Positions 1-39,778 of a stretch of DNA of 64,000 nucleotides are shown piece after piece. The first letter of the stretch is position 1. Each line of letters starts with the position of its first letter. Below the pieces are notes generated by a model. That model was given only the letters and a program-made list of their open reading frames with translations. It did no database searches and was not told the DNA's origin. Source of the stretch: Acheta domesticus (Eukaryota; Arthropoda; Insecta; Orthoptera; Gryllidae). The position numbers were made by a program, and so were the translations under genes. The stretch covers positions 223,147,654 to 223,211,653 of the forward strand of contig JAHLJT010000631.1 in assembly GCA_031308135.1 (NCBI GenBank), in the 5' to 3' direction.

Positions 1-1787
1 ATAGCGTAAAGGATGCTTAAAATAATGATACAGGTTTCATTTTCGTTAAAATTCCTAATTTTTTGAAAAGTACAAAATTTCAAATTTTTTTCGGCCCTTT
101 CTACAATTACAATATAGAAGATAGATATCTTTTCCGGAATGAAATCTGTTGTTTAAAGACTTATCCTAAAATAACGCCTATTTTTGTATAATATATGCTT
201 GAAGTGCATGTAATTGGTAAACAAATCATTTTCTCAAAAAACGGCTCTAACAAGGGACGCTTAAAAGAATGGCGGAGGGAGTGATGTATTCAACAAGTGA
301 CGGCAGATAAGCGTTTACTCTTTTAATTTCAAAATATTAAAATTTTGCATTTATTCTATAAAATTGATTAATGATGGCACGCGATAAAACATCTCAAGCC
401 CATTACCTTTCATTTCAAACAATAATCACGAAATTTGGTTGAGAACAAAGTTCTAACGCCTTTCTAACCAAAAATTTTAGTTTAAAAAAATAATTTTTGC
501 AGTTTTATAAATGTCCCAGGTTTTAATGAAAAACAAACCATTCTCATATAGTATCACTTCCTTTCATTAGAGTAAAACTTTCAAGAAAACATTCCAACTG
601 TTTTCTAGAAAAAATTGAAAATGTCACAGCATCGTGAAAAATACCCTCAAAAATTATAATATCTTAATGATTTTCGGACCAGCACAAATTTACTTTACTC
701 CAAACGGATTTACCCAGTTTCAGTTCGACATCTTCTAAACTGACGGAGTTAAGCGTGACACATACTTCTATTCACCCATCCAGATATCCCGATTTCTGGT
801 ACAAAATTGAGTGTATATCCTCTCCACTCAAACCAATGTCAACCACCGTTAAAACACTACTAGACCTTCATCATGACGTGTGTGTAGTTACAGCTCAGAA
901 AAATCTTAATCAGGGATGTAACTGACGAAAATACGAGGAAATATTGAGGAGTTGATTCCAATATTATCCCTCCACATACTACAGTTTTAAGAGGAAAAGT
1001 AACAATTGAAGTATTGTAAAAAGCTTGTGAATTTCGCATTGAAAGAAACCGATGTGCGATATAAAGTTTTGAATGTTAGATACACTTTTTCAATGAGATT
1101 CGGAATGGCCGATCTCGCTAATGTTAATGTAAGGGACATTTTCTCAGAAACGATTTAATTTACAACCTTGAAATTTTATGTGAGTGTAGATTCATTAGTT
1201 ATGATTATTTTAACGAAGGCATTTAAAAAAATATATTTTTCGTTGTTATTAATACAGTTATACATGTATACAAATACATTTTTGTCATTTGTAATCGATT
1301 TTGTTCTCAAAAATACTAACATTGAAAAGAATATTGTTTACAGTATTTAACATTTTATAAATCCGCCCCATTTAAGTATATTTTGGTGTGCTACATGCTC
1401 TGTTAATATTTTAGCATCTTCCTATTAGTAGTTTTTGATAAAATGTTTCCTAAAGATGAAAATTTTAAACTTACGAGAAATGGCTTCCAGAGTTTTTAGT
1501 GCATTCTTAGTTCATACGCTGGACAAAAACAAAACACCGACATGACGCTATTCACCACTCATTTGTTAAAAAATAGTGTATCCAACACTAGAAAGCCAAC
1601 TATTAACAATTTCTCACAAAGAAAGCAGAAAAGCAACATCCACAACATTCAAGCAACACCCATGATGTGTCAAAACGGCCACGCCCACTTCCATGCTACA
1701 CAAACTTCAAAATTAAAAAATAAATACAGAAGACATATTAAGACGAAATTTAGCTATTGAATACAAAAAACATCTGGACTCGAAACA
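1..1787. other. Unassigned AT-rich flank left of the tRNA array
   Basis: No supportable gene. Short open frames here have no recognisable motif. Roughly the first 170 bases weakly resemble internal parts of the 1.6-kb repeat family described at 22.8 kb (a poly-T tract, then a motif like TTTTTTTCGGC followed by ACAATTACAA), so this may be an old relic of it. The rest shows nothing I recognise. Confidence 0.4.
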
Positions 1788-1826
1788 TTGGACTCGAAAT
1801 CCAATGGGCTCTGCCCGCAGCTTCCG
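1788..1826 (+). pseudogene. Truncated tRNA-Ser unit at the left edge of the array
   Basis: Only the anticodon arm and variable arm are present (TTGGACTCGAAATCCAA, then the GGGCTCTGCCC arm). The acceptor and D arm are missing and the T arm is replaced by a short junction. The usual spacer follows. It is the left boundary of the array. Confidence 0.8.
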
Positions 1827-1913
1827 CTACTTTTAGATAAATGAGTCTACATTTACAATAGGATTTACATCCACAAACTGTATTAGATGTATCTTTCTGC
1901 AACCATCCCGACG

Positions 1914-1995
1914 CCTGCGGTGTCCGAGTGGTTAAGGAGTAGGACTCGAAAACCAATGGGCTCTGCCCGCACAGGTTCGAATCCTGTCCGCAGCG
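1914..1995 (+). tRNA. tRNA-Ser(CGA) copy 1, degenerate
   Basis: G1C breaks the first acceptor pair; T28A and T39A break two anticodon-stem pairs. The loop still reads CGA. Probably non-functional edge copy. Confidence 0.5.
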
Positions 1996-2086
1996 TCCGT
2001 GCATTTTAGATAAATGAGTCTACATTTACAATAGGCTTTACATCCACAAACTGTATTAGATGTATCTTTCCGATACCCTCCGCACG

Positions 2087-2168
2087 GCTGCGGTGTCCGA
2101 GTAGTTAAGGAGTTGGACTCGAAATCCAAAGGGTTCGGCCCGCACAGGTTCGAATCCTGTCCGCAGCG
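2087..2168 (+). tRNA. tRNA-Ser-CGA: tRNA-Ser(CGA) copy 2
   Basis: All stems intact. G17A alters the invariant D-loop GG pair, and the variable arm differs at three positions but still pairs. Confidence 0.75.
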
Positions 2169-2259
2169 TCCGCGACATTTAGATAAATGAGTATACATTT
2201 ACAATAGGATTGACATCCACAAACTGTATTAGATGTATCTTTCTGCCACCGTCCGCACG

Positions 2260-2341
2260 GCTGCGGTGTCCGAGTGGTTAAGGAGTTGGACTCGAAATCC
2301 AATGGGCTCTGCCCGCACAGGTTCGAATCCTGTCCGCAGCG
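2260..2341 (+). tRNA. tRNA-Ser-CGA: tRNA-Ser(CGA) copy 3
   Basis: Exact consensus over 82 nt. Confidence 0.93.
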
Positions 2342-2431
2342 TCCGCGACTTTTAAATAAATGAGTCTACATTTACAATCGGTTTACATCCGCGAACTGTA
2401 TTAGATGTTTGTTTCTGCCACCGTCCCCACG

Positions 2432-2513
2432 GCTGCGGTGTCCGAGTGGTTAAGAAGTTGGACTCGAAATCCAATGGGCTCTGCCCGCACAGGTTCGAAT
2501 CCTGTCCGCAGCG
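2432..2513 (+). tRNA. tRNA-Ser-CGA: tRNA-Ser(CGA) copy 4
   Basis: G24A gives a C-A mismatch in the D stem; otherwise consensus. Confidence 0.8.
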
Positions 2514-2604
2514 TCCGTGACTTTTAGATAAATGAGTCTACATTTACAATAGGATTATCATCCGCGAACTGTATTAGATGTTCGTTTCTGCCACCGTACC
2601 CACG

Positions 2605-2686
2605 GCTGCGGTGTCCGAGTGATTAAGGAGTTGGACTCGAAATCCAATGGGCTCTGCCCGCACAGGTTCGAATCCTGTCCGCAGCG
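2605..2686 (+). tRNA. tRNA-Ser-CGA: tRNA-Ser(CGA) copy 5
   Basis: G18A in the conserved D-loop GG; otherwise consensus. Confidence 0.8.
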
Positions 2687-2777
2687 TCCGCGACTTTTAG
2701 ATAAATGAGTCTACATTTACAATCGGATTTACATCCACAAACTGTATTAGATGTATCTTTCTGTCTCCGTCCCCACG

Positions 2778-2859
2778 GCTGCGGTGTCCGAGTGGTTAAG
2801 GAGTTGGACTCGAAATCCAATGGGCTCTGCCCGCACAGGTTCGAATCCTGTCCGCAGCG
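2778..2859 (+). tRNA. tRNA-Ser-CGA: tRNA-Ser(CGA) copy 6
   Basis: Exact consensus over 82 nt. Confidence 0.93.
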
Positions 2860-2950
2860 TCCGCGACTTTTAGATAAATGAGTCTACATTTACAATCGGA
2901 TTTACATCCGCGAACTGTATTAGATGTTTGTTTCTGCCACCGTCCCCACG

Positions 2951-3032
2951 GCTGCGGTGTCCGAGTGGTTAAGAAGTTGGACTCGAAATCCAATGGGCTC
3001 TGCCCGCACAGGTTCGAATCCTGTCCGCAGCG
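2951..3032 (+). tRNA. tRNA-Ser-CGA: tRNA-Ser(CGA) copy 7
   Basis: G24A, D-stem mismatch, as in copy 4; otherwise consensus. Confidence 0.8.
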
Positions 3033-3123
3033 TCCGTGACTTTTAGATAAATGAGTCTACATTTACAATAGGATTATCATCCGCGAACTGTATTAGATGT
3101 TCGTTTCTGCCACCGTACCCACG

Positions 3124-3205
3124 GCTGCGGTGTCCGAGTGGTTAAGGAGTTGGACTCGAAATCCAATGGGCTCTGCCCGCACAGGTTCGAATCCTGTCCG
3201 CAGCG
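3124..3205 (+). tRNA. tRNA-Ser-CGA: tRNA-Ser(CGA) copy 8
   Basis: Exact consensus over 82 nt. Confidence 0.93.
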
Positions 3206-3296
3206 TCCGTGACTTTTAGATAAATGAGTCTACATTTACAATAGGATTATCATCCGCGAACTGTATTAGATGTTTGTTTCTGCCACCGTACCCACG

Positions 3297-3378
3297 GCTG
3301 CGGTGTCCGAGTGGTTAAGGAGTTGGACTCAAAATCTAATGGGCTCTACCCGCACAGGTTCGAATCCTCTCCGCAGCG
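3297..3378 (+). tRNA. tRNA-Ser body with anticodon CAA (Leu), copy 9, degenerate
   Basis: Loop reads CTCAAAA, so the anticodon is CAA (codon UUG). It also has C41T (wobble), a variable-arm change and G73C, which breaks a T-stem pair. The serine-type long variable arm and discriminator G are retained. Confidence 0.7.
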
Positions 3379-3469
3379 TCCGTGACTTTTAGATAAATGA
3401 GTATACATTTACAATAGGATTATCATCCACAAACTGTATTATATGTATCTTTCTGCCGCCGTCCCCACG

Positions 3470-3551
3470 GCTGCGGTGTCCGAGTGGTTAAGGGGTTGGA
3501 CTCGAAATCCAATGGGCTCTGCCCGCAGAGGTTCGAATCCTGTCCGCAGCG
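3470..3551 (+). tRNA. tRNA-Ser-CGA: tRNA-Ser(CGA) copy 10
   Basis: A25G (wobble in D stem) and C59G (G-G mismatch in T stem). Confidence 0.75.
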
Positions 3552-3642
3552 TCCGTGACTTTTAGATAAATGAGTCTACATTAACAATAGGATTATCATC
3601 CGCGAACTGTATTAGATGTTTGTTTCTGCCACCGTACCCACG

Positions 3643-3724
3643 GCTGCGGTGTCCGAGTGGTTAAGGAGTTGGACTCGAAATCCAATGGGCTCTGCCCGCA
3701 CAGGTTCGAATCCTCTCCGCAGCG
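3643..3724 (+). tRNA. tRNA-Ser-CGA: tRNA-Ser(CGA) copy 11
   Basis: G73C gives a C-C mismatch in the T stem; otherwise consensus. Confidence 0.78.
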
Positions 3725-3815
3725 TCCGTGACTTTTAGATAAATGAGTCTACATTTACAATAGGATTATCATCCACAAACTGTATTATATGTATCTTTCT
3801 GCCGCCGTCCCCACG

Positions 3816-3897
3816 GCTGCGGTGTCCGAGTGGTTAAGGAGTTGGACTCGAAATCCAATGGGCTCTGCCCGCAGAGGTTCGAATCCTGTCCGCAGCG
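3816..3897 (+). tRNA. tRNA-Ser-CGA: tRNA-Ser(CGA) copy 12
   Basis: C59G T-stem mismatch; otherwise consensus. Confidence 0.78.
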
Positions 3898-3988
3898 TCC
3901 GTGACTTTTAGATAAATGAGTCTACATTTACAATAGGATTATCATCCGCGAACTGTATTAGATGTTTGTTTCTGCCACCGTACCCACG

Positions 3989-4070
3989 GCTGCGGTGTCC
4001 GAGTGGTTAAGGAGTTGGACTCGAAATCCAATGGGCTCTGCCCGCACAGGTTCGAATCCTCTCCGCAGCG
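3989..4070 (+). tRNA. tRNA-Ser-CGA: tRNA-Ser(CGA) copy 13
   Basis: G73C T-stem mismatch. Its downstream spacer matches that of copy 57. Confidence 0.78.
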
Positions 4071-4161
4071 TCCGTCTCTTTTAGATAAATGAGTCTACAT
4101 TTACAATAGGATTATCATCCATAAACTGTATTAGATGTATCTTTCTGCCTCCGTCCCCACG

Positions 4162-4243
4162 GCTGCGGTGTCCGAGTGGTTAAGGAGTTGGACTCGAAAT
4201 CCAATGGGCTCTGCCCGCACAGGTTCGAATCCTGTCCGCAGCG
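4162..4243 (+). tRNA. tRNA-Ser-CGA: tRNA-Ser(CGA) copy 14
   Basis: Exact consensus over 82 nt. Confidence 0.93.
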
Positions 4244-4334
4244 TCCGTAACTTTTAGATAAACGAGTCTACATTTACAATAGGATTATCATCCGCGAACT
4301 GTATTAGATGTTTGTTTCTGCCACCGTACCCACG

Positions 4335-4416
4335 GCTGCGGTGTCCGAGTGGTTAAGGAGTTGGACTCGAAATCCAATGGGCTCTGCCCGCACAGGTTCG
4401 AATCCTGTCCGCAGCG
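4335..4416 (+). tRNA. tRNA-Ser-CGA: tRNA-Ser(CGA) copy 15
   Basis: Exact consensus over 82 nt. Confidence 0.93.
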
Positions 4417-4507
4417 TCCGTGACTTTTAGATAAATGAGTCTACATTTACAATAGGATTATCATCCGCGAACTGTATTAGATGTTTGTTTCTGCCACCGT
4501 AACCACG

Positions 4508-4589
4508 GGTGCGGTGTCCGAGTGGTTAAGAAGTTGGACTCGAAATCCAATGGGCTCTGCCCGCAGAGGTTCGAATCCTGTCCGCAGCG
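4508..4589 (+). tRNA. tRNA-Ser(CGA) copy 16, degenerate
   Basis: C2G breaks an acceptor pair, G24A a D-stem pair and C59G a T-stem pair. Confidence 0.6.
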
Positions 4590-4680
4590 TCCGTGACTTT
4601 TAGATAAATGAGTCTACATTTACAATAGGATTATCATCCGCGAACTGTATTAGATGTTTGTTTCTGCCACCGTAACCACG

Positions 4681-4762
4681 GCTGCGGTGTCCGAGTGGTT
4701 AAGGAGTTTGACTCGAAATCCAATGGGCTCTGCCCGCAGAGGTTCGAATCCTGTCCGCAGCG
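4681..4762 (+). tRNA. tRNA-Ser(CGA) copy 17, degenerate
   Basis: G29T breaks an anticodon-stem pair; C59G breaks a T-stem pair. Confidence 0.65.
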
Positions 4763-4853
4763 TCCGTGACTTTTAGATAAATGAGTCTACATTTACAATA
4801 GGATTATCATCCGCGAACTGTATTAGATGTTTGTTTCTGCCACCGTAACCACG

Positions 4854-4935
4854 GCTGCGGTGTCCGAGTGGTTAAGAAGTTGGACTCGAAATCCAATGGG
4901 CTCTGCCCGCAGAGGTTCGAATCCTGTCCGCAGCG
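4854..4935 (+). tRNA. tRNA-Ser-CGA: tRNA-Ser(CGA) copy 18
   Basis: G24A (D stem) and C59G (T stem) mismatches. Confidence 0.7.
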
Positions 4936-5026
4936 TCCGTGACTTTTAGATAAATGAGTCTACATTTACAATAGGATTATCATCCGCGAACTGTATTAGA
5001 TGTTTGTTTCTGCCACCGTACCCACG

Positions 5027-5108
5027 GCTGCGGTGTCCGAGTGGTTAAGGAGTTGGACTCGAAATCCAATGAGCTCTGCCCGCACAGGTTCGAATCCTGT
5101 CCGCAGCG
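5027..5108 (+). tRNA. tRNA-Ser-CGA: tRNA-Ser(CGA) copy 19
   Basis: Only G46A in the variable arm; all canonical stems intact. Confidence 0.85.
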
Positions 5109-5199
5109 TCCGTGACTTTTAGATAAATGAGTCTACATTTACTATAGGATTATCATCCACGAACTGTATTAGATGTTTTTTTCTGCCACCGTACCCACG

Positions 5200-5281
5200 G
5201 CTGCGGTGTCCGAGTGGTTAAGGAGTTGGACTCGAAATCCAATGGGCTCTGCCCGCACAGGTTCGAATCCTGTCCGCAGCG
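5200..5281 (+). tRNA. tRNA-Ser-CGA: tRNA-Ser(CGA) copy 20
   Basis: Exact consensus over 82 nt. Confidence 0.93.
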
Positions 5282-5372
5282 TCCGTGACTTTTAGATAAA
5301 TGAGTCTACATTTACTATAGGATTATCATCCACGAACTGTATTAGATGTTTTTTTCTGCCACCGTACCCACG

Positions 5373-5454
5373 GCTGCGGTGTCCGAGTGGTTAAGGAGTT
5401 GGACTCGAAATCCAATGGGCTCTGCCCGCACTGGTTCGAATCCTGTCCGCAGCG
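5373..5454 (+). tRNA. tRNA-Ser-CGA: tRNA-Ser(CGA) copy 21
   Basis: A60T gives a T-T mismatch in the T stem; otherwise consensus. Confidence 0.78.
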
Positions 5455-5545
5455 TCCGTGACTTTTAGATAAACGAGTCTACATTTACAATAGGATTATC
5501 ATCCGCGAACTGTATTAGATGTTTGTTTCTGCCACCGTAACCACG

Positions 5546-5627
5546 GCTGCGGTGTCCGAGTGGTTAAGGAGTTGGACTCGAAATCCAATGGGCTCTGCCC
5601 GCACAGGTTCGAATCCTGTCCGCAGCG
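5546..5627 (+). tRNA. tRNA-Ser-CGA: tRNA-Ser(CGA) copy 22
   Basis: Exact consensus over 82 nt. Confidence 0.93.
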
Positions 5628-5718
5628 TCCGTAACTTTTAGATAAACAAGTCTACATTTACAATAGGATTATCATCCACGAACTGTATTAGATGTTTTTT
5701 TCTGCCACCGTAACCACG

Positions 5719-5800
5719 GCTGCGGTGTCCGAGTGGTTAAGGAGTTGGGCTCGAAATCCAATGGGCTCTGCCCGCACAGGTTCGAGTCCTGTCCGCAGCG
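5719..5800 (+). tRNA. tRNA-Ser-CGA: tRNA-Ser(CGA) copy 23
   Basis: A31G (G-T wobble closing the anticodon stem) and A68G in a non-invariant T-loop position. Confidence 0.82.
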
Positions 5801-5891
5801 TCCGTGACTTTTAGATAAATGAGTCTACATTTACAATAGGATTATCATCCGCGAACTGTATTAGATGTTTGTTTCTGCCGCCGTCCCCACG

Positions 5892-5972
5892 GCTGCGGTG
5901 TCCGAGTGGTTAAGGAGTGGACTCGAAATCCAATGGGCTCTGCCCGCAGAGGTTCGAATCCTGTCCGCAGCG
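5892..5972 (+). tRNA. tRNA-Ser(CGA) copy 24, one-base deletion
   Basis: One T is missing from the anticodon stem, so the copy is 81 nt and the stem cannot form five pairs; C59G is also present. Likely non-functional. It causes the only mid-array 172-bp step before copy 38. Confidence 0.55.
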
Positions 5973-6063
5973 TCCGTGACTTTTAGATAAATGAGTCTAC
6001 ATTTACAATAGGATTATCATCCGCGAACTGTATTAGATGTTTGTTTCTGCCACCGTACCCACG

Positions 6064-6145
6064 GCTGCGGTGTCCGAGTGGTTAAGGAGTTGGACTCAAA
6101 ATCCAATGGGCTCTGCCCGCACAGGTTCGAATCCTGTCCGCAGCG
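6064..6145 (+). tRNA. tRNA-Ser body with anticodon CAA (Leu), copy 25, otherwise perfect
   Basis: The only difference from the 82-nt consensus is G35A, at 6098, which changes the loop to CTCAAAA and the anticodon (6097-6099) from CGA to CAA. The serine variable arm, discriminator G, both internal promoter boxes and the downstream TTTT are intact. If expressed and charged by SerRS, which does not read the anticodon, it would place serine at UUG leucine codons. Confidence 0.88.
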
Positions 6146-6236
6146 TCCGTGACTTTTAGATAAATGAGTCTACATTTACTATAGGATTATCATCCACGAA
6201 CTGTATTAGATGTTTTTTTCTGCCACCGTACCCACG

Positions 6237-6318
6237 GCTGCGGTGTCCGAGTGGTTAAGGAGTTGGACTCGAAATCCAATGGGCTCTGCCCGCACTGGTT
6301 CGAATCCTGTCCGCAGCG
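6237..6318 (+). tRNA. tRNA-Ser-CGA: tRNA-Ser(CGA) copy 26
   Basis: A60T T-stem mismatch; first unit of a four-unit block repeated as copies 30-33. Confidence 0.78.
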
Positions 6319-6409
6319 TCCGTGACTTTTAGATAAACGAGTCTACATTTACAATAGGATTATCATCCGCGAACTGTATTAGATGTTTGTTTCTTCCACC
6401 GTAACCACG

Positions 6410-6491
6410 GCTGCGGTGTCCGAGTGGTTAAGGAGTTGGACTCGAAATCCAATGGGCTCTGCCCGCACAGGTTCGAATCCTGTCCGCAGCG
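6410..6491 (+). tRNA. tRNA-Ser-CGA: tRNA-Ser(CGA) copy 27
   Basis: Exact consensus over 82 nt. Confidence 0.93.
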
Positions 6492-6582
6492 TCCGTAACT
6501 TTTAGATAAACGAGTCTACATTTACAATAGGATTATCATCCACGAACTGTATTAGATGTTTTTTTCTGCCACCCTAACCACG

Positions 6583-6664
6583 GCTGCGGTGTCCGAGTGG
6601 TTAAGGAGTTGGACTCGAAATCCAATGGGCTCTGCCCGCACTGGTTCGAATCCTGTCCGCAGCG
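6583..6664 (+). tRNA. tRNA-Ser-CGA: tRNA-Ser(CGA) copy 28
   Basis: A60T T-stem mismatch; otherwise consensus. Confidence 0.78.
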
Positions 6665-6755
6665 TCCGTGACTTTTAGATAAATGAGTCTACATTTACTA
6701 TAGGATTATCATCCACGAACTGTATTAGATGTTTTTTTCTGCCACCGTACCCACG

Positions 6756-6837
6756 GCTGCGGTGTCCGAGTGGTTAAGGAGTTGGACTAGAAATCCAATG
6801 GGCTCTGCCCGCAGAGGTTCGAATCCTGTCCGCAGCG
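6756..6837 (+). tRNA. tRNA-Ser-AGA: tRNA-Ser(AGA) copy 29
   Basis: C34A turns the loop into CTAGAAA, anticodon AGA. C59G leaves a T-stem mismatch. Confidence 0.75.
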
Positions 6838-6928
6838 TCCGTGACTTTTAGATAAATGAGTCTACATTTACTATAGGATTATCATCCACGAACTGTATTA
6901 GATGTTTTTTTCTGCCACCGTACCCACG

Positions 6929-7010
6929 GCTGCGGTGTCCGAGTGGTTAAGGAGTTGGACTCGAAATCCAATGGGCTCTGCCCGCACTGGTTCGAATCCT
7001 GTCCGCAGCG
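6929..7010 (+). tRNA. tRNA-Ser-CGA: tRNA-Ser(CGA) copy 30
   Basis: A60T T-stem mismatch; duplicate of copy 26. Confidence 0.78.
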
Positions 7011-7101
7011 TCCGTGACTTTTAGATAAACGAGTCTACATTTACAATAGGATTATCATCCGCGAACTGTATTAGATGTTTGTTTCTTCCACCGTAACCAC
7101 G

Positions 7102-7183
7102 GCTGCGGTGTCCGAGTGGTTAAGGAGTTGGACTCGAAATCCAATGGGCTCTGCCCGCACAGGTTCGAATCCTGTCCGCAGCG
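7102..7183 (+). tRNA. tRNA-Ser-CGA: tRNA-Ser(CGA) copy 31
   Basis: Exact consensus over 82 nt; duplicate of copy 27. Confidence 0.93.
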
Positions 7184-7274
7184 TCCGTAACTTTTAGATA
7201 AACGAGTCTACATTTACAATAGGATTATCATCCACGAACTGTATTAGATGTTTTTTTCTGCCACCCTAACCACG

Positions 7275-7356
7275 GCTGCGGTGTCCGAGTGGTTAAGGAG
7301 TTGGACTCGAAATCCAATGGGCTCTGCCCGCACTGGTTCGAATCCTGTCCGCAGCG
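7275..7356 (+). tRNA. tRNA-Ser-CGA: tRNA-Ser(CGA) copy 32
   Basis: A60T T-stem mismatch; duplicate of copy 28. Confidence 0.78.
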
Positions 7357-7447
7357 TCCGTGACTTTTAGATAAATGAGTCTACATTTACTATAGGATTA
7401 TCATCCACGAACTGTATTAGATGTTTTTTTCTGCCACCGTACCCACG

Positions 7448-7529
7448 GCTGCGGTGTCCGAGTGGTTAAGGAGTTGGACTAGAAATCCAATGGGCTCTGC
7501 CCGCAGAGGTTCGAATCCTGTCCGCAGCG
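7448..7529 (+). tRNA. tRNA-Ser-AGA: tRNA-Ser(AGA) copy 33
   Basis: C34A (anticodon AGA) and C59G; duplicate of copy 29. Confidence 0.75.
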
Positions 7530-7620
7530 TCCGTGACTTTTAGATAAATGAGTCTACATTTACAATAGGATTATCATCCGCGAACTGTATTAGATGTTTG
7601 TTTCTGCCACCGTACCCACG

Positions 7621-7702
7621 GCTGCGGTGTCCGAGTGGTTAAGGAGTTGGACTAGAAATCCAATGGGCTCTGCCCGCACAGGTTCGAATCCTGTCCGCAG
7701 CG
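7621..7702 (+). tRNA. tRNA-Ser-AGA: tRNA-Ser(AGA) copy 34, otherwise perfect
   Basis: C34A is the only change from consensus. AGA (read as IGA after editing) would decode UCU, UCC and UCA, so one substitution gives a different serine isoacceptor. Confidence 0.88.
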
Positions 7703-7793
7703 TCCGTGACTTTTAGATAAATGAGTATACATTTACAATAGGATTATCATCCGCGAACTGTATTAGATGTTTGTTTCTGCCACCGTACCCACG

Positions 7794-7875
7794 GCTGCGG
7801 TGTCCGAGTGGGTAAGGAGTAGGACTCGAAATCCAATGGGCTCTGCCCGCACAGGTTCCAATCCTGTCCGCAGCG
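7794..7875 (+). tRNA. tRNA-Ser(CGA) copy 35, degenerate
   Basis: T19G in the D loop, T28A breaking the anticodon stem, and G66C in the T loop and B box. Probably not transcribed well. Confidence 0.55.
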
Positions 7876-7966
7876 TCCGTGACTTTTAGATAAATGAGTC
7901 TACATTTACTATAGGATTATCATCCACGAACTGTATTAGATGTTTGTTTCTGCCACCGTAACCACG

Positions 7967-8048
7967 GCTGCGGTGTCCGAGTGGTTAAGGAGTTGGACTC
8001 GAAATCCAATGGGCTCTGCCCGCACAGGTTCGAATCCTGTCCGCAGCG
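7967..8048 (+). tRNA. tRNA-Ser-CGA: tRNA-Ser(CGA) copy 36
   Basis: Exact consensus over 82 nt. Confidence 0.93.
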
Positions 8049-8139
8049 TCCGTGACTTTTAGATAAATGAGTCTACATTTACAATAGGATTATCATCCAC
8101 GAACTGTATTAGATGTTTGTTTCTGCCACCGTACCCACG

Positions 8140-8221
8140 GCTGCGTTGTCCGAGTGGTTAAGGAGTTGGACTCGAAATCTAATGGGCTCTGCCCGCACAG
8201 GTTCGAATCCTCTCCGCAGCG
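8140..8221 (+). tRNA. tRNA-Ser(CGA) copy 37, degenerate
   Basis: G7T breaks an acceptor pair, C41T gives a wobble and G73C breaks a T-stem pair. Confidence 0.6.
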
Positions 8222-8312
8222 TCCGTGACTTTTAGATAAATGAGTATACATTTACAATAGGATTATCATCCACAAACTGTATTATATGTATCTTTCTGCC
8301 TCCGTCCCCACG

Positions 8313-8393
8313 GCTGCGGTGTCCGAGTGGTTAAGGGGTTGGACTCGAAATCCTAGGGCTCTGCCCGCAGAGGTTCGAATCCTGTCCGCAGCG
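8313..8393 (+). tRNA. tRNA-Ser(CGA) copy 38, one-base deletion
   Basis: A25G, C59G and a one-base loss with a substitution at the junction of anticodon stem and variable arm; 81 nt. Its block duplicate, copy 48, lacks the deletion. Confidence 0.55.
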
Positions 8394-8484
8394 TCCGTGA
8401 CTTTTAGATAAATGAGTCTACATTTACAATAGGATTATCATCCGCGAACTGTATTAGATGTTTGTTTCTGCCACCGTACCCACG

Positions 8485-8566
8485 GCTGCGGTGTCCGAGT
8501 GGTTAAGGAGTTGGACTCGAAATCCAATGGGCTCTGCCCGCACAGGTTCGAATCCTGTCCGCAGCG
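8485..8566 (+). tRNA. tRNA-Ser-CGA: tRNA-Ser(CGA) copy 39
   Basis: Exact consensus over 82 nt. Confidence 0.93.
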
Positions 8567-8657
8567 TCCGTGACTTTTAGATAAATGAGTCTACATTTAC
8601 AATAGGATTATCATCCACGAACTGTATTAGATGTTTGTTTCTGCCACCGTACCCACG

Positions 8658-8739
8658 GCTGCGGTGTCCGAGTGGTTAAGGAGTTGGACTCGAAATCTAA
8701 TGGGCTCTGCCCGCACAGGTTCGAATCCTCTCCGCAGCG
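8658..8739 (+). tRNA. tRNA-Ser-CGA: tRNA-Ser(CGA) copy 40
   Basis: C41T wobble and G73C T-stem mismatch. Confidence 0.72.
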
Positions 8740-8830
8740 TCCGTGCATTTTAGAGAAATGAGTATACATTTACAATAGGATTATCATCCACAAACTGTAT
8801 TATATGTATCTTTCTGCCGCCGTCCCCACG

Positions 8831-8912
8831 GCTGCGGTGTCCGGGTGGTTAAGGGGTTGGACTCGAAATCCAATGGGCTCTGCCCGCAGAGGTTCGAATC
8901 CTGTCCGCAGCG
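8831..8912 (+). tRNA. tRNA-Ser(CGA) copy 41
   Basis: A14G at an invariant position, A25G wobble and C59G T-stem mismatch. Confidence 0.65.
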
Positions 8913-9003
8913 TCCGTGACTTTTAGATAAATGAGTCTACATTAACAATAGGATTATCATCCGCGAACTGTATTAGATGTTTGTTTCTGCCACCGTACCC
9001 ACG

Positions 9004-9085
9004 GCTGCGGTGTCCGAGTGGTTAAGGAGTTGGACTCGAAATCCAATGGGCTCTGCCCGCACAGGTTCGCATCCTGTCCGCAGCG
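9004..9085 (+). tRNA. tRNA-Ser(CGA) copy 42
   Basis: A67C hits the invariant T-loop A58 (standard numbering) and the B box; otherwise consensus. Confidence 0.7.
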
Positions 9086-9176
9086 TCCGTGACTTTTAGA
9101 TAAATGAGTCTACATTAACAATAGGATTATCATCCGCGAACTGTATTAGATGTTTGTTTCTGCCACCGTACCCACG

Positions 9177-9258
9177 GCTGCGGTGTCCGAGTGGTTAAGG
9201 AGTTGGACTAGAAATCCAATGGGCTCTGCCCGCAGAGGTTCGAATCCTGTCCGCAGCG
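9177..9258 (+). tRNA. tRNA-Ser-AGA: tRNA-Ser(AGA) copy 43
   Basis: C34A (AGA) and C59G; block duplicate of copy 33. Confidence 0.75.
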
Positions 9259-9349
9259 TCCGTGACTTTTAGATAAATGAGTCTACATTTACAATAGGAT
9301 TATCATCCGCGAACTGTATTAGATGTTTGTTTCTGCCACCGTACCCACG

Positions 9350-9431
9350 GCTGCGGTGTCCGAGTGGTTAAGGAGTTGGACTAGAAATCCAATGGGCTCT
9401 GCCCGCACAGGTTCGAATCCTGTCCGCAGCG
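9350..9431 (+). tRNA. tRNA-Ser-AGA: tRNA-Ser(AGA) copy 44, otherwise perfect
   Basis: C34A only; block duplicate of copy 34. Confidence 0.88.
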
Positions 9432-9522
9432 TCCGTGACTTTTAGATAAATGAGTATACATTTACAATAGGATTATCATCCGCGAACTGTATTAGATGTT
9501 TGTTTCTGCCACCGTACCCACG

Positions 9523-9604
9523 GCTGCGGTGTCCGAGTGGGTAAGGAGTAGGACTCGAAATCCAATGGGCTCTGCCCGCACAGGTTCCAATCCTGTCCGC
9601 AGCG
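9523..9604 (+). tRNA. tRNA-Ser(CGA) copy 45, degenerate
   Basis: Same three changes as copy 35 (T19G, T28A, G66C), which marks the block duplication. Confidence 0.55.
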
Positions 9605-9695
9605 TCCGTGACTTTTAGATAAATGAGTCTACATTTACTATAGGATTATCATCCACGAACTGTATTAGATGTTTGTTTCTGCCACCGTAACCACG

Positions 9696-9777
9696 GCTGC
9701 GGTGTCCGAGTGGTTAAGGAGTTGGACTCGAAATCCAATGGGCTCTGCCCGCACAGGTTCGAATCCTGTCCGCAGCG
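9696..9777 (+). tRNA. tRNA-Ser-CGA: tRNA-Ser(CGA) copy 46
   Basis: Exact consensus over 82 nt. Confidence 0.93.
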
Positions 9778-9868
9778 TCCGTGACTTTTAGATAAATGAG
9801 TCTACATTTACAATAGGATTATCATCCACGAACTGTATTAGATGTTTGTTTCTGCCACCGTACCCACG

Positions 9869-9950
9869 GCTGCGTTGTCCGAGTGGTTAAGGAGTTGGAC
9901 TCGAAATCTAATGGGCTCTGCCCGCACAGGTTCGAATCCTCTCCGCAGCG
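9869..9950 (+). tRNA. tRNA-Ser(CGA) copy 47, degenerate
   Basis: G7T, C41T and G73C, identical to copy 37. Confidence 0.6.
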
Positions 9951-10041
9951 TCCGTGACTTTTAGATAAATGAGTATACATTTACAATAGGATTATCATCC
10001 ACAAACTGTATTATATGTATCTTTCTGCCGCCGTCCCCACG

Positions 10042-10123
10042 GCTGCGGTGTCCGAGTGGTTAAGGGGTTGGACTCGAAATCCAATGGGCTCTGCCCGCAG
10101 AGGTTCGAATCCTGTCCGCAGCG
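10042..10123 (+). tRNA. tRNA-Ser-CGA: tRNA-Ser(CGA) copy 48
   Basis: A25G and C59G. Confidence 0.74.
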
Positions 10124-10214
10124 TCCGTGACTTTTAGATAAATGAGTCTACATTTACAATAGGATTATCATCCGCGAACTGTATTAGATGTTTGTTTCTG
10201 CCACCGTACCCACG

Positions 10215-10296
10215 GCTGCGGTGTCCGAGTGGTTAAGGAGTTGGACTCGAAATCCAATGGGCTCTGCCCGCACAGGTTCGAATCCTGTCCGCAGCG
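10215..10296 (+). tRNA. tRNA-Ser-CGA: tRNA-Ser(CGA) copy 49
   Basis: Exact consensus over 82 nt. Confidence 0.93.
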
Positions 10297-10387
10297 TCCG
10301 TGACTTTTAGATAAATGAGTCTACATTTACAATAGGATTATCATCCACGAACTGTATTAGATGTTTGTTTCTGCCACCGTACCCACG

Positions 10388-10469
10388 GCTGCGGTGTCCG
10401 AGTGGTTAAGGAGTTGGACTCGAAATCTAATGGGCTCTGCCCGCACAGGTTCGAATCCTCTCCGCAGCG
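10388..10469 (+). tRNA. tRNA-Ser-CGA: tRNA-Ser(CGA) copy 50
   Basis: C41T and G73C; its spacer has the rare variant TTTTAGAGAAATG shared only with copy 40. Confidence 0.72.
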
Positions 10470-10560
10470 TCCGTGCATTTTAGAGAAATGAGTATACATT
10501 TACAATAGGATTATCATCCACAAACTGTATTATATGTATCTTTCTGCCGCCGTCCCCACG

Positions 10561-10642
10561 GCTGCGGTGTCCGGGTGGTTAAGGGGTTGGACTCGAAATC
10601 CAATGGGCTCTGCCCGCAGAGGTTCGAATCCTGTCCGCAGCG
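10561..10642 (+). tRNA. tRNA-Ser(CGA) copy 51
   Basis: A14G, A25G and C59G, as copy 41. Confidence 0.65.
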
Positions 10643-10733
10643 TCCGTGACTTTTAGATAAATGAGTCTACATTAACAATAGGATTATCATCCGCGAACTG
10701 TATTAGATGTTTGTTTCTGCCACCGTCCCCACG

Positions 10734-10815
10734 GCTGCGGTGTCCGGGTGGTTAAGGGGTTGGACTCGAAATCCAATGGGCTCTGCCCGCAGAGGTTCGA
10801 ATCCTGTCCGCAGCG
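10734..10815 (+). tRNA. tRNA-Ser(CGA) copy 52
   Basis: A14G, A25G and C59G, as copy 51. Confidence 0.65.
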
Positions 10816-10906
10816 TCCGTGACTTTTAGATAAATGAGTCTACATTAACAATAGGATTATCATCCGCGAACTGTATTAGATGTTTGTTTCTGCCACCGTA
10901 CCCACG

Positions 10907-10988
10907 GCTGCGGTGTCCGAGTGGTTAAGCAGTTGGACTCGAAATCCAATGGGCTCTGCCCGCACAGGTTCGAATCCTCTCCGCAGCG
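10907..10988 (+). tRNA. tRNA-Ser(CGA) copy 53
   Basis: G24C (C-C mismatch in D stem) and G73C (T stem). Confidence 0.68.
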
Positions 10989-11079
10989 TCCGTGACTTTT
11001 AGATAAATGAGTCTACATTTACAATAGGATTATCATCCACAAACTGTATTATATGTATCTTTCTGCCGCCGTCCCCACG

Positions 11080-11161
11080 GCTGCGGTGTCCGAGTGGTTA
11101 AGGAGTTGGACTCGAAATCCAATGGGCTCTGCCCGCACAGGTTCGAATCCTGTCCGCAGCG
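11080..11161 (+). tRNA. tRNA-Ser-CGA: tRNA-Ser(CGA) copy 54
   Basis: Exact consensus over 82 nt. Confidence 0.93.
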
Positions 11162-11252
11162 TCCGTGACTTTTAGATAAATGAGTCTATATTTACAATAG
11201 GATTATCATCCACGAACTGTATTAGATGTTTGTTTCTGCCACCGTACCCACG

Positions 11253-11334
11253 GCTGCGGTGTCCGAGTGGTTAAGGAGTTGGACTCGAAATCTAATGGGC
11301 TCTGCCCGCACAGGTTCGAATCCTCTCCGCAGCG
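11253..11334 (+). tRNA. tRNA-Ser-CGA: tRNA-Ser(CGA) copy 55
   Basis: C41T wobble and G73C T-stem mismatch. Confidence 0.72.
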
Positions 11335-11425
11335 TCCGTGACTTTTAGATAAATGAGTATACATTTACAATAGGATTATCATCCACAAACTGTATTATAT
11401 GTATCTTTCTGCCGCCGTCCCCACG

Positions 11426-11507
11426 GCTGCGGTGTCCGGGTGGTTAAGGGGTTGGACTCGAAATCCAATGGGCTCTGCCCGCAGAGGTTCGAATCCTGTC
11501 CGCAGCG
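11426..11507 (+). tRNA. tRNA-Ser(CGA) copy 56
   Basis: A14G, A25G and C59G. Confidence 0.65.
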
Positions 11508-11598
11508 TCCGTGACTTTTAGATAAATGAGTCTACATTAACAATAGGATTATCATCCGCGAACTGTATTAGATGTTTGTTTCTGCCACCGTACCCACG

Positions 11599-11680
11599 GC
11601 TGCGGTGTCCGAGTGGTTAAGGAGTTGGACTCGAAATCCAATGGGCTCTGCCCGCATAGGTTCGAATCCTCTCCGCAGCG
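11599..11680 (+). tRNA. tRNA-Ser-CGA: tRNA-Ser(CGA) copy 57
   Basis: C59T together with G73C leaves a T-C mismatch in the T stem. Confidence 0.72.
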
Positions 11681-11771
11681 TCCGTCACTTTTAGATAAAT
11701 GAGTCTACATTTACAATAGGATTATCATCCATAAACTGTATTAGATGTATCTTTCTGCCTCCGTCCCCACG

Positions 11772-11853
11772 CCTGCGGTGTCCGAGTGGTTAAGGAGTTG
11801 GACTCGAATTCCAATGGGCTCTGCCCGCACAGGTTCGAATCCTGTCCGCAGCG
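11772..11853 (+). tRNA. tRNA-Ser(CGA) copy 58
   Basis: G1C breaks the first acceptor pair; A38T at the end of the anticodon loop. Confidence 0.68.
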
Positions 11854-11944
11854 TCCGTAACTTTTAGATAAACGAGTCTACATTTACAATAGGATTATCA
11901 TCCGCGAACTGTATTAGATGTTTGTTTCTGCCACCGAAACCACG

Positions 11945-12026
11945 GCTGCGGTGTCCGAGTGGTTAAGGAGTTGGACTCGAAATCCAATGGGCTCTGCCCG
12001 CACAGGTTCGAATCCTCTCCGCAGCG
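11945..12026 (+). tRNA. tRNA-Ser-CGA: tRNA-Ser(CGA) copy 59
   Basis: G73C T-stem mismatch; otherwise consensus. Confidence 0.78.
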
Positions 12027-12117
12027 TCCGTCACTTTTAGATAAATGAGTCTACATTTACTATAGGATTATCATCCACGAACTGTATTAGGTGTTTTTTT
12101 CTGCCACCGTACCCACG

Positions 12118-12199
12118 GCTGCGGTGTCCGAGTGGTTAAGGAGTTGGACTCGAAATCCAATAGGCTCTGCCCGCACAGGTTCGAATCCTGTCCGCAGCG
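12118..12199 (+). tRNA. tRNA-Ser-CGA: tRNA-Ser(CGA) copy 60
   Basis: G45A in the variable arm only; canonical stems intact. Confidence 0.85.
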
Positions 12200-12280
12200 T
12201 CCGTGACTTTTAGGTAAATGAGTCTACATTTACAATAGGATTATCATCCACGAAATGTATTAGATGTTTGTTTCTGCCAC

Positions 12281-12299
12281 CGTACCCACGTCCGCAGCG
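12281..12299 (+). pseudogene. Array unit with the tRNA body deleted
   Basis: The spacer runs directly into the last nine bases of a tRNA (TCCGCAGCG), so about 73 nt of tRNA are missing between CCCACG and that point. Confidence 0.8.
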
Positions 12300-12390
12300 T
12301 CCGTGCATTTTAGATTAATGAGTCTACATTTACAATAGAATTTACAACCACGAATTGTATTAGACGTTTGTGTCTGCGACCGTCTCCTCG

Positions 12391-12472
12391 GCTGCGGTGT
12401 CCGAGTGGTTAAGGAGTTGGACTCGAAATCCAATGGGCTCTGCCCGCAGAGGTTCGAATCTTGGCCGCAGCG
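12391..12472 (+). tRNA. tRNA-Ser(CGA) copy 61, degenerate right edge
   Basis: Acceptor, D and anticodon arms are consensus, but the T arm has C59G, C71T and T74G and cannot pair properly. Likely non-functional. Confidence 0.5.
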
Positions 12473-12560
12473 TCAGTCCTTTTTAGATAAGTAATTAGTC
12501 ATTTTGCAAGAGGAACTAGAACCATTGTATTAGCACTTTATTCGGGCCATTAGGACTACA

Positions 12561-12641
12561 GCTGCGATGTTCGCATGGTAAGGAGTTTTGCTCGAAACAA
12601 AATGGATTTTATGAACACATTTTGGAATTAGTTCAGCAGCG
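12561..12641 (+). pseudogene. Old tRNA-Ser relic outside the array
   Basis: Begins GCTGCGATGT and ends CAGCAGCG, keeping the 5' half of an array unit with CTCGAAAC in place of the anticodon loop. The rest is too diverged to fold. It continues the decay gradient at the right edge. Confidence 0.65.
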
Positions 12642-12729
12642 TCAGTTCATTTTATGAATGTTACATAGAGTTATAATATTAATTACAACCACTCGACTGA
12701 ATTAGTAGCATGTTTGTACATCTAGCGTC

Positions 12730-12800
12730 CCATTGAGAAGTCTGAGCGGCTAAGGATGATAACTCTGTCCGTACAAGTTAGAATCTCGTCCGCGATCCTT
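12730..12800 (+). pseudogene. Very old tRNA-Ser relic
   Basis: Scattered matches in the right order (TCTGAGCGGCTAAGGA, CTCTGTCCGTACAAGTTAGAATC) suggest a further decayed array unit. Weakly supported. Confidence 0.35.
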
Positions 12801-13116
12801 TCTTTTCGCTAATATGTACAAAAGTATTCATTTTCTCAAGAGTTAGGCCTGCCAATAAACAAGTCGCAATCTTATTTTATTGTACCTGTGTGCCCCTGCA
12901 ATGTTCGCAGTTCTGAAAGAATATTTCGCTGTTTATCCGAGGTTACCACTTGTCCCCCCCCTTTGGTTTCCTTCATGCTCCTACCGTCAATACTTATGCG
13001 GCTGTTGACTTTGAAGCTTTTTTATATTGACAGGAGATTGGCAACGTGAAGACGTTCTCGGTTCTCTCTCTGGCTGCGCCACCGGCTGGCGCTCCGGGCG
13101 CGTGGGGCGGCCGCGC
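12801..13116. other. Spacer between tRNA fringe and receptor gene
   Basis: No gene recognised up to about 13040. From there the sequence becomes very rich in G, C and CpG; this GC-rich patch continues to about 13510 and encloses the receptor's last exon. Confidence 0.4.
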
Positions 13117-13288
13117 TCAGAAGCTCCACGCTTGGGCGCGCGGCCGCCGCACTCCCGCAGCTGCGCCCGGCCGCCGCCGGCGGCGCCACCTGTCCGCCAA
13201 CAGCTCCACCGCGAAGACGGCGATCGCCAGCAGTACGACCGCGCCCAGCACCGCTGCCGGCCATAGACAAAGTAAGTGCTTTGGTGCT
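13117..13288 (-). CDS. Ionotropic receptor, exon 2 (fourth transmembrane segment and C-terminus)
   Basis: This minus-strand reading frame encodes a strong membrane helix, LWPAAVLGAVVLLAIAVFAV followed by ELLADRW, then an arginine run and a basic tail ending in a TGA at 13117. A hydrophobic helix ending in F-x-x-E-L-L is typical of M4 in insect ionotropic receptors, and M4 is what the large exon at 19.07-20.42 kb lacks. The phases agree: the upstream exon ends two bases into a codon, and an acceptor AG at 13289-13290 supplies one base (giving Arg) before the frame. A second in-frame acceptor 12 bases upstream is also possible. The exon is far more GC-rich than the rest of the gene, and the pyrimidine tract is weak. 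Joining the two is inference from phase, order, strand and complementary content. Confidence 0.68.
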
Positions 13289-13504
13289 CTGTGCTGCCGG
13301 CTGCACCAGGGCACGTGGGGACAGCGCCCGCACCATACTCCCGGACATACGCCCGACTTATACTCTCTGGCCCGCACCGCCGCCGCTGCCGCCCCCGCTT
13401 ATGCCGCTTCGCACGTACGCACGTACATGCCGCTCATCTTCTCCATGAACGCGTCGGCGCTGCAGGCACAGGCCGAAGGCGAGCGCGTTCAATTGGTTGA
13501 TGAG

Positions 13505-13690
13505 TGATTCGGGACGCGTCAACTTCTAAGGTCATTAGTCCCGCAAATGTAGTGCATGTTTTTTGCGTCAGGTAGTTGTGATCTTTCCCAGCTAGCTGGC
13601 AAGATTCTGCGCCGATTAATGGTAGCTTGCGGAGATTTTCCCCTAACAGGTATCTCCCATCTGCGTAGCATCGCGCCAGCCTGGGCAAGC
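13505..13690 (+). repeat. Interspersed repeat family 3, copy a
   Basis: Shares an ordered set of motifs with 26360-26490 and 58618-58865: GCGTCAACT, GGTCATTAGTCCCGCAA, GTGCATGTTTTTT, then TTTTCCCC...CAGGTATCTCCCA. No coding potential seen. Function unknown. Confidence 0.65.
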
Positions 13691-17300: not shown

Positions 17301-17501
17301 TGCAGTCTTTAATATTCTAAATTTAGTAATTCCGTTCTATGATTAGAAAACGGAAAAATTAAAAAATGTCAAAAAATGTACTTTGGGCGGTGATAGATGG
17401 CAACTGGCAAGAGTATGTGACACTTCCGAATAGCTAGCCCAGACCCAAGGAAACAGAAAACTAATACGGGAAAGTCTGTGCCATTCTGTAGCACCGATAG
17501 T
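14397..17501 (+). mobile_element. Helentron-like non-autonomous element, copy A (interrupted)
   Basis: Begins near a degenerate CTTTCCCGTATACGTACG terminus and ends at GTAGCACCGATAGT, with the internal order of motifs seen in the intact copy at 22841-24430. A second copy (15027-16622, opposite orientation) is inserted within it: the outer sequence breaks at TGTAATTTAAA and resumes at GGTACATAAACAAGATTTTC. It lies in the intron of the ionotropic receptor gene. No open frame of note. Confidence 0.8.
15027..16622 (-). mobile_element. Helentron-like non-autonomous element, copy B (nested, full length)
   Basis: Starts with ACTAGTGGTGCTACAG and ends TACGTATACGGGAAAGT, the reverse complement of the family's two termini. 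It has internal repeats of GCTCCAAATTTTTTC and a purine-rich GGACAGACGGACG tract. Flanks are A-rich on this strand (AAA on both sides), so a target duplication cannot be separated from target preference. Confidence 0.85.
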
Positions 17502-19070
17502 TTAACAATTACTTTCTCAAAGACGGTTCCAATTTTTATCTTCAAATGTTTTCCTCGGATAAAAACAGATGCTAAATATTAGGCATAGATTCTGGTGCTA
17601 TTTTCGTTTTCGGTGGTCTCTGTATTTTCAAAAATTGCAAAAATGTAACATTGGTAAAGTACAATATTGATGATGTAGATTTTTCTTAAATAAAATATGT
17701 TTTAAAAAATGTATATTTAAAGAAGAGCATGTACATTGTTTTGAAATCACGAGATGTTTTTGCGGAATTTTCGCTACAAATTTATGCAGTTCATTTTTTT
17801 TAAATCCAATTGTTTTCTTTAAATGATTACCTCGAGTAGAACAAAAAATTGGGTAAGTTTTATTTTCGTCAAACTTTACGTATTTTAGGAAATTTGAAAT
17901 AAACAATTTAGTTTGCAAAACTATAATGCAAATGATACAGATGTTTTCTTAATGAAATCTCTGCTTCAAAACCAATTTTGAGATAATGTAAATGAAAAAC
18001 TCAAAAATTTTTAAAATTCAACTTTTAAATCCGTCGTGTTGTTTAACTTTTTTATGCGTCGGAAAGGTGGAGACAAGTGTCAATGCTAGTAGCACAGGAG
18101 TAACGTAAAATTAAAATCCTGCGTAGGAATCCCAGCGAGAAAATATTGTTGCTGGTTCGAAACACTTTCCCAGGTTCATGTCGTATTATTAATGTACGTA
18201 GTGGTTACAAATAATAGGAAACAGTACGTAATGAGGAGGACTAGCTTTCCTACATATAAAAATACATTGTCAGATAATTATCTTCTTTTAAAATTTGCTA
18301 AGGGCAATATCTGCATTATTCTAATCCCCAAATACCAATCCTGCTTTCACATGTTGAAAGTACATTTCATCTCCTATGCCCTCCATAAATATCACATAAA
18401 ACATTTAATTATAATCTGACGTATACCAGTGAGTCATTTCAGGTGAAAAAAGTCACCCCTTTTTCCTCAATTACTAATTCTCAGTTTCTGTGCAGCAGTT
18501 TCTTGCCGATTTCTCTAATTCTACAAGTGTAATGTATAGAATATTGTCTTATAATGAGCCGCAGTACTATCTTGTATTGTCGAAGAAAAATCTACTTCAT
18601 ATGGATACAAATGAAAAATACCCAAATTTGTGAGCTTGTGGTGTTTATGGTAAAAATTAAACAGCTTTCTACCATGCTCTGAAGACCTAGTCCGATTCTA
18701 GGTCTTCAGAACCTTACCGTACGGCGTACCAGCCGGCTATCGGAATTGCAGTGTACTTGCTGTTCGTAAACTGATCGCCCGTGTCTGTGACAGGAAATTA
18801 GATTCTTGGAAATGCGCATTATGCTGCAGTGATACAAAAACCTGTGACGAAATCGAAAAATTACAAAGACACTTACTAAGGGAATCTATACTACTGATGC
18901 TAAAACGATGAAGAAATTAGTTATTCCTAATATTTCACGCGATGTTCCTCACAATTTAGAAGCATTTTAAGTAAGATTAAAGGTTTTACTGACATTATCA
19001 ATTGTTGTGCTTTACTTCATTCACCCTGATCGTGAATATCTTACTACATAATTATAAATTGCATACATAC
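17502..19070. other. Intronic sequence of the ionotropic receptor
   Basis: No gene recognised. Contains a perfect 12-bp hairpin at 18679-18709 (CTGAAGACCTAG, loop TCCGATT, CTAGGTCTTCAG). A GGTTCGAAAC motif near 18150 resembles a Pol III B box, but no tRNA or SINE body could be built around it. Confidence 0.45.
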
Positions 19071-29999: not shown

Positions 30000-30013
30000 T
30001 TTTCCCGTTTTTT

Positions 30014-34531: not shown

Positions 34532-34532
34532 A

Positions 34533-39763: not shown

Positions 39764-39774
39764 GGAGGGGAGGG
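39764..39774 (+). promoter_or_regulatory. Polypurine tract of the Gypsy element
   Basis: GGAGGGGAGGG four bases before the 3' LTR, the usual plus-strand primer position. Confidence 0.85.
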
Positions 39775-39778
39775 CCAA

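Follow-up and report, generated by a model that had tools for sequence, protein, structure and literature searches.

A satellite-like tandem array of serine tRNA genes in the cricket Acheta domesticus

A 64,000-nucleotide stretch of the genome of the cricket Acheta domesticus (assembly GCA_031308135.1, contig JAHLJT010000631.1, positions 223,147,654 to 223,211,653 of the forward strand), hereafter the window, carries 61 tRNA genes, nearly all of them tRNA-Ser, in a tandem array with a unit of 173 bp. How did such an array arise, and are its genes kept for the tRNA that they encode? An earlier note on this DNA had offered three readings, namely an amplification for dosage, a chromatin boundary made of tRNA genes (tDNA) and a satellite that happens to carry a tRNA. 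The last of these fits best, by virtue of the duplicated blocks, the decayed edges and the chance frequency of stem breaks described below. The satellite may not be purely passive, as the gene half of the unit is less variable than the spacer half, for which the evidence is moderate. On balance, the array is probably a tDNA satellite produced by ordinary mechanisms, with a homogenised core and decaying edges, in which the shared consensus seems to be kept and some copies are probably working.

The genes were located with ARAGORN, which reported 61 tRNA genes between positions 1914 and 12472, all on the plus strand, and no further tRNA gene outside this range in the whole 64-kb window. The identical 61 genes were recovered in positions 1-13000 with the Rfam model RF00005, with scores of 37.4 to 63.7 bits (at least 50 bits for 47 of the 61). 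All of them thus exceed the gathering score of 29 and score as tRNA, and when positions 12200-64000 were scanned with the same model, the sole match was the last array copy again. Tandem Repeats Finder (TRF) described a tandem repeat with a period of 173 bp, 60.6 copies and 95% matches from 1811 to 12290. The earlier claim of 61 tRNA genes over 1914..12472 in a 173-bp repeat was confirmed. The unit consists of one tRNA gene (82 nt) and 91 bp of spacer. The genes and one gene-less unit are as follows:

1914..12472, plus strand: 61 tRNA genes (54 Ser CGA, 5 AGA, 2 CAA), 82 nt each except for two of 81 nt (ARAGORN, TRF, Rfam)
12291..12390, plus strand: 100-bp unit without a tRNA gene, made of gene end and spacer only (100-bp row of TRF, sequence, nhmmer match at 12290-12389, 273-bp step)

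The strict phase that had been claimed holds for 56 of the 60 start-to-start steps, which measure exactly 173 bp. An exactly strict 173-bp phase was rejected on account of the four exceptional steps, three of 172 bp and one of 273 bp, the latter containing the 100-bp unit. Similarly, the range given earlier is right for the span of the genes, but the repeat extends beyond it on both sides, from 1788 to ~12895. With 61 genes on the same strand, steps of 172 to 273 bp and serine anticodons in 59 of the 61, the array is a tandem tDNA cluster of one type. It is also satellite-like, in that many highly similar copies of a short unit follow one another head to tail; its copy number is given as in the assembly.

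The unit appears to be confined to the array within the window, as none of its 173 15-mers recurs outside 1781-12900 and the best match of the core profile elsewhere in the window (nhmmer) reached only E 0.2. Inside the spacer no tandem repeat was reported by TRF. Patterns from the unit were also searched by exact matching only: a 45-nt gene pattern and a 32-nt spacer pattern gave no match in viral contigs, and a 51-nt gene pattern gave none in genome contigs, from which records of the window's own genome were possibly excluded. An origin of the unit from a short interspersed nuclear element (SINE) is unlikely, since the array gene encodes an intact tRNA, is followed by a T-run of its own and has no dispersed copy in the window, all of which is unlike a SINE.

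The order of the units was then compared along the array. Among the 60 units u01-u60, 47 are distinct, and two blocks of units recur in order:

7448..8912, plus strand: u33-u41, first copy of a block that recurs ten units (1,730 bp) on as u43-u51 (9177-10642) (unit alignment)
6237..6755, plus strand: u26-u28, identical to u30-u32 at a shift of four units (unit comparison)

In the longer block, eight of the nine unit pairs (u33-37/u43-47 and u39-41/u49-51) are at most one base apart, u38 and u48 being separated by more. At lags 4 and 10 together, 11 units fall in runs of at least three, whereas 200 shuffles of the unit order gave 0.1 such units on average and never more than 3. The mean difference between units is lowest at lag 10 (5.9 vs 6.8-8.4 over lags 1-21). 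Unequal exchange of several units at a time would be the ordinary explanation for such ordered blocks. Together with the divergent edges, which are likewise a mark of satellite growth, the ordered duplications point to unequal exchange and concerted evolution, a mechanism that we infer from the sequence. They also bear on the suspicion that the array, or its length, is a product of mis-assembly. Assemblies often misstate how many copies a short repeat has, but the high proportion of distinct units, the ordered blocks and the graded decay of the edges are unlike a mis-join of identical copies, and an artefact of this kind is extremely unlikely.

At both ends the array runs out in truncated, divergent or decayed pieces:

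1788..1822, plus strand: truncated left-most gene piece (anticodon arm, variable arm, jump to the gene end), start of the array (nhmmer 1788-1811, model 27-50, E 8.5e-4; sequence reading)
1823..2259, plus strand: left edge with spacers sp0, sp1 and sp2 and genes u01 and u02, more divergent from the core consensus (alignment)
12561..12640, plus strand: psi62, decayed tRNA pseudogene (54 of 80 aligned positions equal to the consensus, a fit reached by 0 of 300 shuffles; nhmmer 12561-12719, E 3e-8)
12732..12795, plus strand: psi63, decayed tRNA pseudogene (49 of 63 aligned positions identical to the consensus, with 20 gap positions, a fit reached by 0 of 300 shuffles; nhmmer 12737-12835, E 2.6e-4)
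12796..12895, plus strand: sp63, decayed spacer in which the array can last be recognised (fit reached by 1 of 300 shuffles)

To the right of copy 61 the order of the pieces is kept (spacer, psi62, spacer, psi63 and a spacer to ~12895), which makes at least two decayed units in register. For each of the first four pieces none of 300 shuffles scores equally, and the profile of the core unit recovers both decayed units independently, with the two E-values listed. In the gene slot that follows, 12896-12981, the gene can no longer be recognised, 28 of 300 shuffles scoring equally well. The spacers of the left edge deviate from the core consensus at 19 positions, and at six of these the same base is found in a right-edge spacer, clearly at positions 7, 8, 44, 45 and 85 and weakly at position 6. 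Most core units differ at the shared positions, but 15 of 57 carry the edge base at position 85. Of seven deviations in the left-edge genes, a single one recurs on the right, in psi62, which is itself strongly diverged. The shared edge bases are compatible with a core that is homogenised while the edges are neglected.

What the repeated gene encodes is clear from its consensus, an 82-nt serine tRNA gene with a serine anticodon and a long variable arm with a 4-bp stem, in which all 24 defined cloverleaf pairs are formed; all counts of stem pairs given here rest on these 24 pairs, which we defined for the consensus cloverleaf. Thirty distinct gene sequences occur, and 14 of the 61 genes are identical to the consensus, exactly the number that had been claimed. 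The internal promoter boxes described earlier are largely preserved, the B-box region (gene positions 61-72) being equal to the consensus in 56 and the A-box region (8-19) in 53 of the 61 genes. A TTTT terminator had been noted in most copies; a run of TTTT or TTTTT was found in 60 of 61, beginning after 8 spacer bases (7 in one case). The label tRNA-Ser(CGA) suits most of the array but not all of it, as ARAGORN assigned the anticodon CGA to 54 genes, AGA to five and CAA to two.

The five AGA copies would remain serine tRNAs. The two CAA copies, u09 and u25, are named tRNA-Leu by ARAGORN and have the body of the serine tRNA, and would therefore read leucine UUG codons on a serine body. The u25 gene (at 6064) departs from the consensus at the anticodon only and has the highest Rfam score. 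Aminoacylation of tRNA-Ser is not specified by the anticodon, according to the cited excerpt of PMC6827378. Fly lines whose serine tRNAs carry valine or threonine anticodons, and thereby misread these codons, were reported to show slow development and more lethality, while some other traits were improved (excerpt of PMC11631534). Because serine misreading can be costly in flies and serylation is independent of the anticodon, strong expression of u25 should have a cost. This is a mild argument that the array is expressed weakly or patchily.

Individual copies look little constrained, since their stem breaks occur at chance frequency. All 24 stem pairs are kept in only 21 of the 61 genes, and at least one is broken in the other 40; 18 genes are fully paired with the anticodon CGA, a count that excludes the two 81-nt genes. 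Among the 32 distinct gene variants in u01-u60, 15 break a stem pair, against a chance expectation of 15.1 (sd 2.8), so that the avoidance of stem breaks expected if every copy were functional was not seen. With 40 damaged copies and breaks at chance level, the possibility that every copy is functional was rejected. The variants seen most often in the gene, C59G (in 16 copies) and G73C (in 11), both hit the same pair of the T stem. The two never co-occur in one copy, though together they would pair.

These counts also weigh on the idea of selected dosage, according to which many genes are kept to satisfy a high need for tRNA-Ser(CGA), such as the secretion of a serine-rich product might create. 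The many near-intact copies with terminators are in its favour, but no more than the 21 copies mentioned are fully paired, 18 of them with CGA, and structure-keeping variants are not in excess. We consider selected dosage improbable, and UCG demand is an unlikely cause of the array.

The damage in some copies agrees with their predicted folding, which was computed on single strands for eight chosen sequences. The consensus gene forms the acceptor, variable and T arms (z -2.8), the D and anticodon arms being absent from the minimum-energy fold. In two copies with the common T-stem variants the T arm is gone from the minimum-energy fold, and psi62 folds barely better than its own shuffles (z -0.5).

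The gene and the spacer were also compared as wholes. Nucleotide diversity (pi) in the core is 0.032 for the gene and 0.064 for the spacer, and the gene window has the ninth lowest pi among 173 circular windows. At the edges, three genes depart from the core consensus at 10 of 82 positions and four spacers at 27 of 91 (p=0.006), a contrast that ranks 7 of 173 when the window is moved around the unit. The lower variation of the gene half, a moderate line of evidence, hints at a constrained shared consensus.

Several results weigh against a consensus that is kept because it works. The edge copies were picked after the alignment had been viewed and the repeats are linked by exchange, so that the p-values for the edges are optimistic; with equal numbers of genes and spacers, the four possible sets of three edge spacers give p values of 0.014, 0.014, 0.022 and 0.16. 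Segregating sites are about as frequent in the gene (30/82) as in the spacer (37/91; p=0.64). Variants confined to a single copy and shared variants number 18 and 14 in the gene and 16 and 28 in the spacer, an excess that is not significant (p=0.10). The rate at which left-edge deviations recur on the right is not different either (1/7 for the gene vs 6/19 for the spacer, p=0.63), and psi62 and psi63 are no nearer to the consensus than their spacers are. Finally, the motif TATA[AT]A was found within 60 bp upstream of none of the 61 genes. AT-rich upstream elements aid tRNA transcription in insects such as flies and silk moths. The evidence on whether the tRNA has been kept working is therefore mixed.

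The same evidence has to be set against a silent satellite, in which the tRNA gene would be a passenger in heterochromatin, no copy would be transcribed and the good consensus would be inherited from a gene that once worked. The 40 copies with a broken stem pair, at chance frequency, agree with this, as do the two CAA copies on a serine body, in particular u25, which is otherwise equal to the consensus and whose strong expression should be costly. However, variation is lower in the gene half than in the spacer half (a contrast that is weaker with equal copy numbers), and the T-run is kept in 60 of 61 genes. The decayed right edge further suggests an old array, in which an unconstrained consensus should have drifted. 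A silent satellite is possible, though we find it doubtful.

A further reading is that of a tDNA chromatin boundary or other chromosomal element, for which bound TFIIIC would matter and not the tRNA. Barrier activity of tDNA has been described and a human tDNA tandem repeat sits at a topological domain boundary (excerpt of PMC4041453), and the B-box region is that of the consensus in 56 of the 61 cricket genes. However, no change in the window was demonstrated from one side of the array to the other, and no search for insulator motifs was made. A boundary is very unlikely, and neither it nor selected dosage finds direct support here. An old tDNA satellite under selection at the level of the array, either for a pool of variant serine tRNAs (AGA, CAA) tuned by copy number or for an element dense in TFIIIC, is quite unlikely too; if such a pool were selected, the array could naturally serve as a reservoir of tRNAs that mistranslate UUG codons as serine.

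The favoured explanation, a tDNA satellite with some working copies, may be formulated as follows. One tRNA-Ser(CGA) gene with 91 bp of flank would have been duplicated head to tail, and the array would then have grown, like a satellite, by unequal exchange of blocks of several units. Repeated exchange would homogenise the core, and the edge units would escape it and decay. Redundancy of the copies would allow single ones to gather stem-breaking and anticodon changes. The shared gene sequence, on the other hand, would stay a good tRNA because some copies are most likely transcribed by RNA polymerase III and used, now or until recently, with weak selection presumably acting on the array as a whole.

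Shortly to the right of its decayed edge, the array is followed by a GC-rich patch at 13031-13507 with an open frame and splice-like ends, for which no Pfam match was found. A dispersed AT-rich repeat family occurs in both orientations with an inner spacing of ~300 nt at 14766-17366, 23233-24337, 30010-31533, 45435-47887 and 57984-60830, as taken from the best 20 of 49 direct families and the best 25 of 212 inverted pairs. A Ty3/gypsy-type long terminal repeat (LTR) retrotransposon lies at 33601-40572, with protease, reverse transcriptase, RNase H and integrase domains over several frames. Its 300-nt stretches at 33601-33900 and 40273-40572 are 100% identical, as for the LTRs of a recent insertion. 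One retrotransposon frame of the window has 55 protein matches among 4180 candidates, including proteins of insects, a spider and plants, the closest with 81% identity over 54% of the query.

Three further regions have coding potential. A 462-codon open frame on the minus strand at 19052-20440 resembles, as we presume, a divergent insect ionotropic receptor, an impression confirmed neither by Pfam nor by homologue searches: all its Pfam matches are below the cut-off, no homologue was found at E 0.001 and no solved relative better than E 0.85, and its predicted model is of low confidence (mean pLDDT 42). Three adjacent, exon-like open frames at 51447-53558 apparently belong to one host gene, which we take, without confirmation, to be perhaps a relative of FAST-kinase-domain proteins; they gave no Pfam family above the cut-off and no protein match. 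The C-terminal part of an open frame at 63479-63841 on the minus strand presumably resembles a mariner-type transposase, which is unconfirmed, the frame having no Pfam match.

Tandem tDNA arrays are already known from other eukaryotes. Among the matches listed in the open-licence literature, no report was found of a tRNA satellite in an insect, nor of an array that combines a single gene in each 173-bp unit with ~60 copies and gradually decaying edges. The cricket array is a clear and compact case of a tRNA gene behaving as a satellite, in which block duplications, a uniform core and edges in decay all lie within 11 kb. It thus lends itself to the study of how selection on single genes is relaxed by redundancy while the array keeps a working consensus, and it raises the question of whether damaged or anticodon-shifted copies are silenced.

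The known systems are compared here as they are described in the cited excerpts of their sources. In Entamoeba, nearly all tRNA genes are arrayed, in units of 1-5 tRNA genes and with an obscure function, and the long head-to-tail arrays, whose uniformity is most likely due to concerted evolution, resemble that of the cricket (PMC2652664). However, the spacers of E. histolytica hold short tandem repeats and no clear pseudogenes were seen in Entamoeba (PMC2652664), whereas the cricket array has one gene type, a spacer without a repeat reported by TRF and many damaged copies. Plants have tandem clusters of one tRNA type, with 27 tRNA-Pro genes in Arabidopsis, 28 tRNA-Ile genes in maize and 26 identical genes in the bryophyte 'Cpu', among clusters of 2 to 110 genes that are not all of a single type; the likeness lies in the tandem arrangement of one type and the difference in the lineage (PMC12652284). 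Nematostella and teleost fishes are similar in cluster size, with fifty and more members, but in Nematostella and zebrafish the pairs are mostly heterogeneous; in drosophilids pairs are mostly homogeneous and large clusters rare (PMC2888827). The human tDNA array with a variable number of tandem repeats at 1q23.3 is likewise a tandem tRNA-gene array, with 9-43 units and an unstable copy number, but its unit is GC-rich, measures 7.3 kb and contains several tRNA genes and a CTCF site (PMC4041453), whereas that of the cricket array measures 173 bp and contains one gene.

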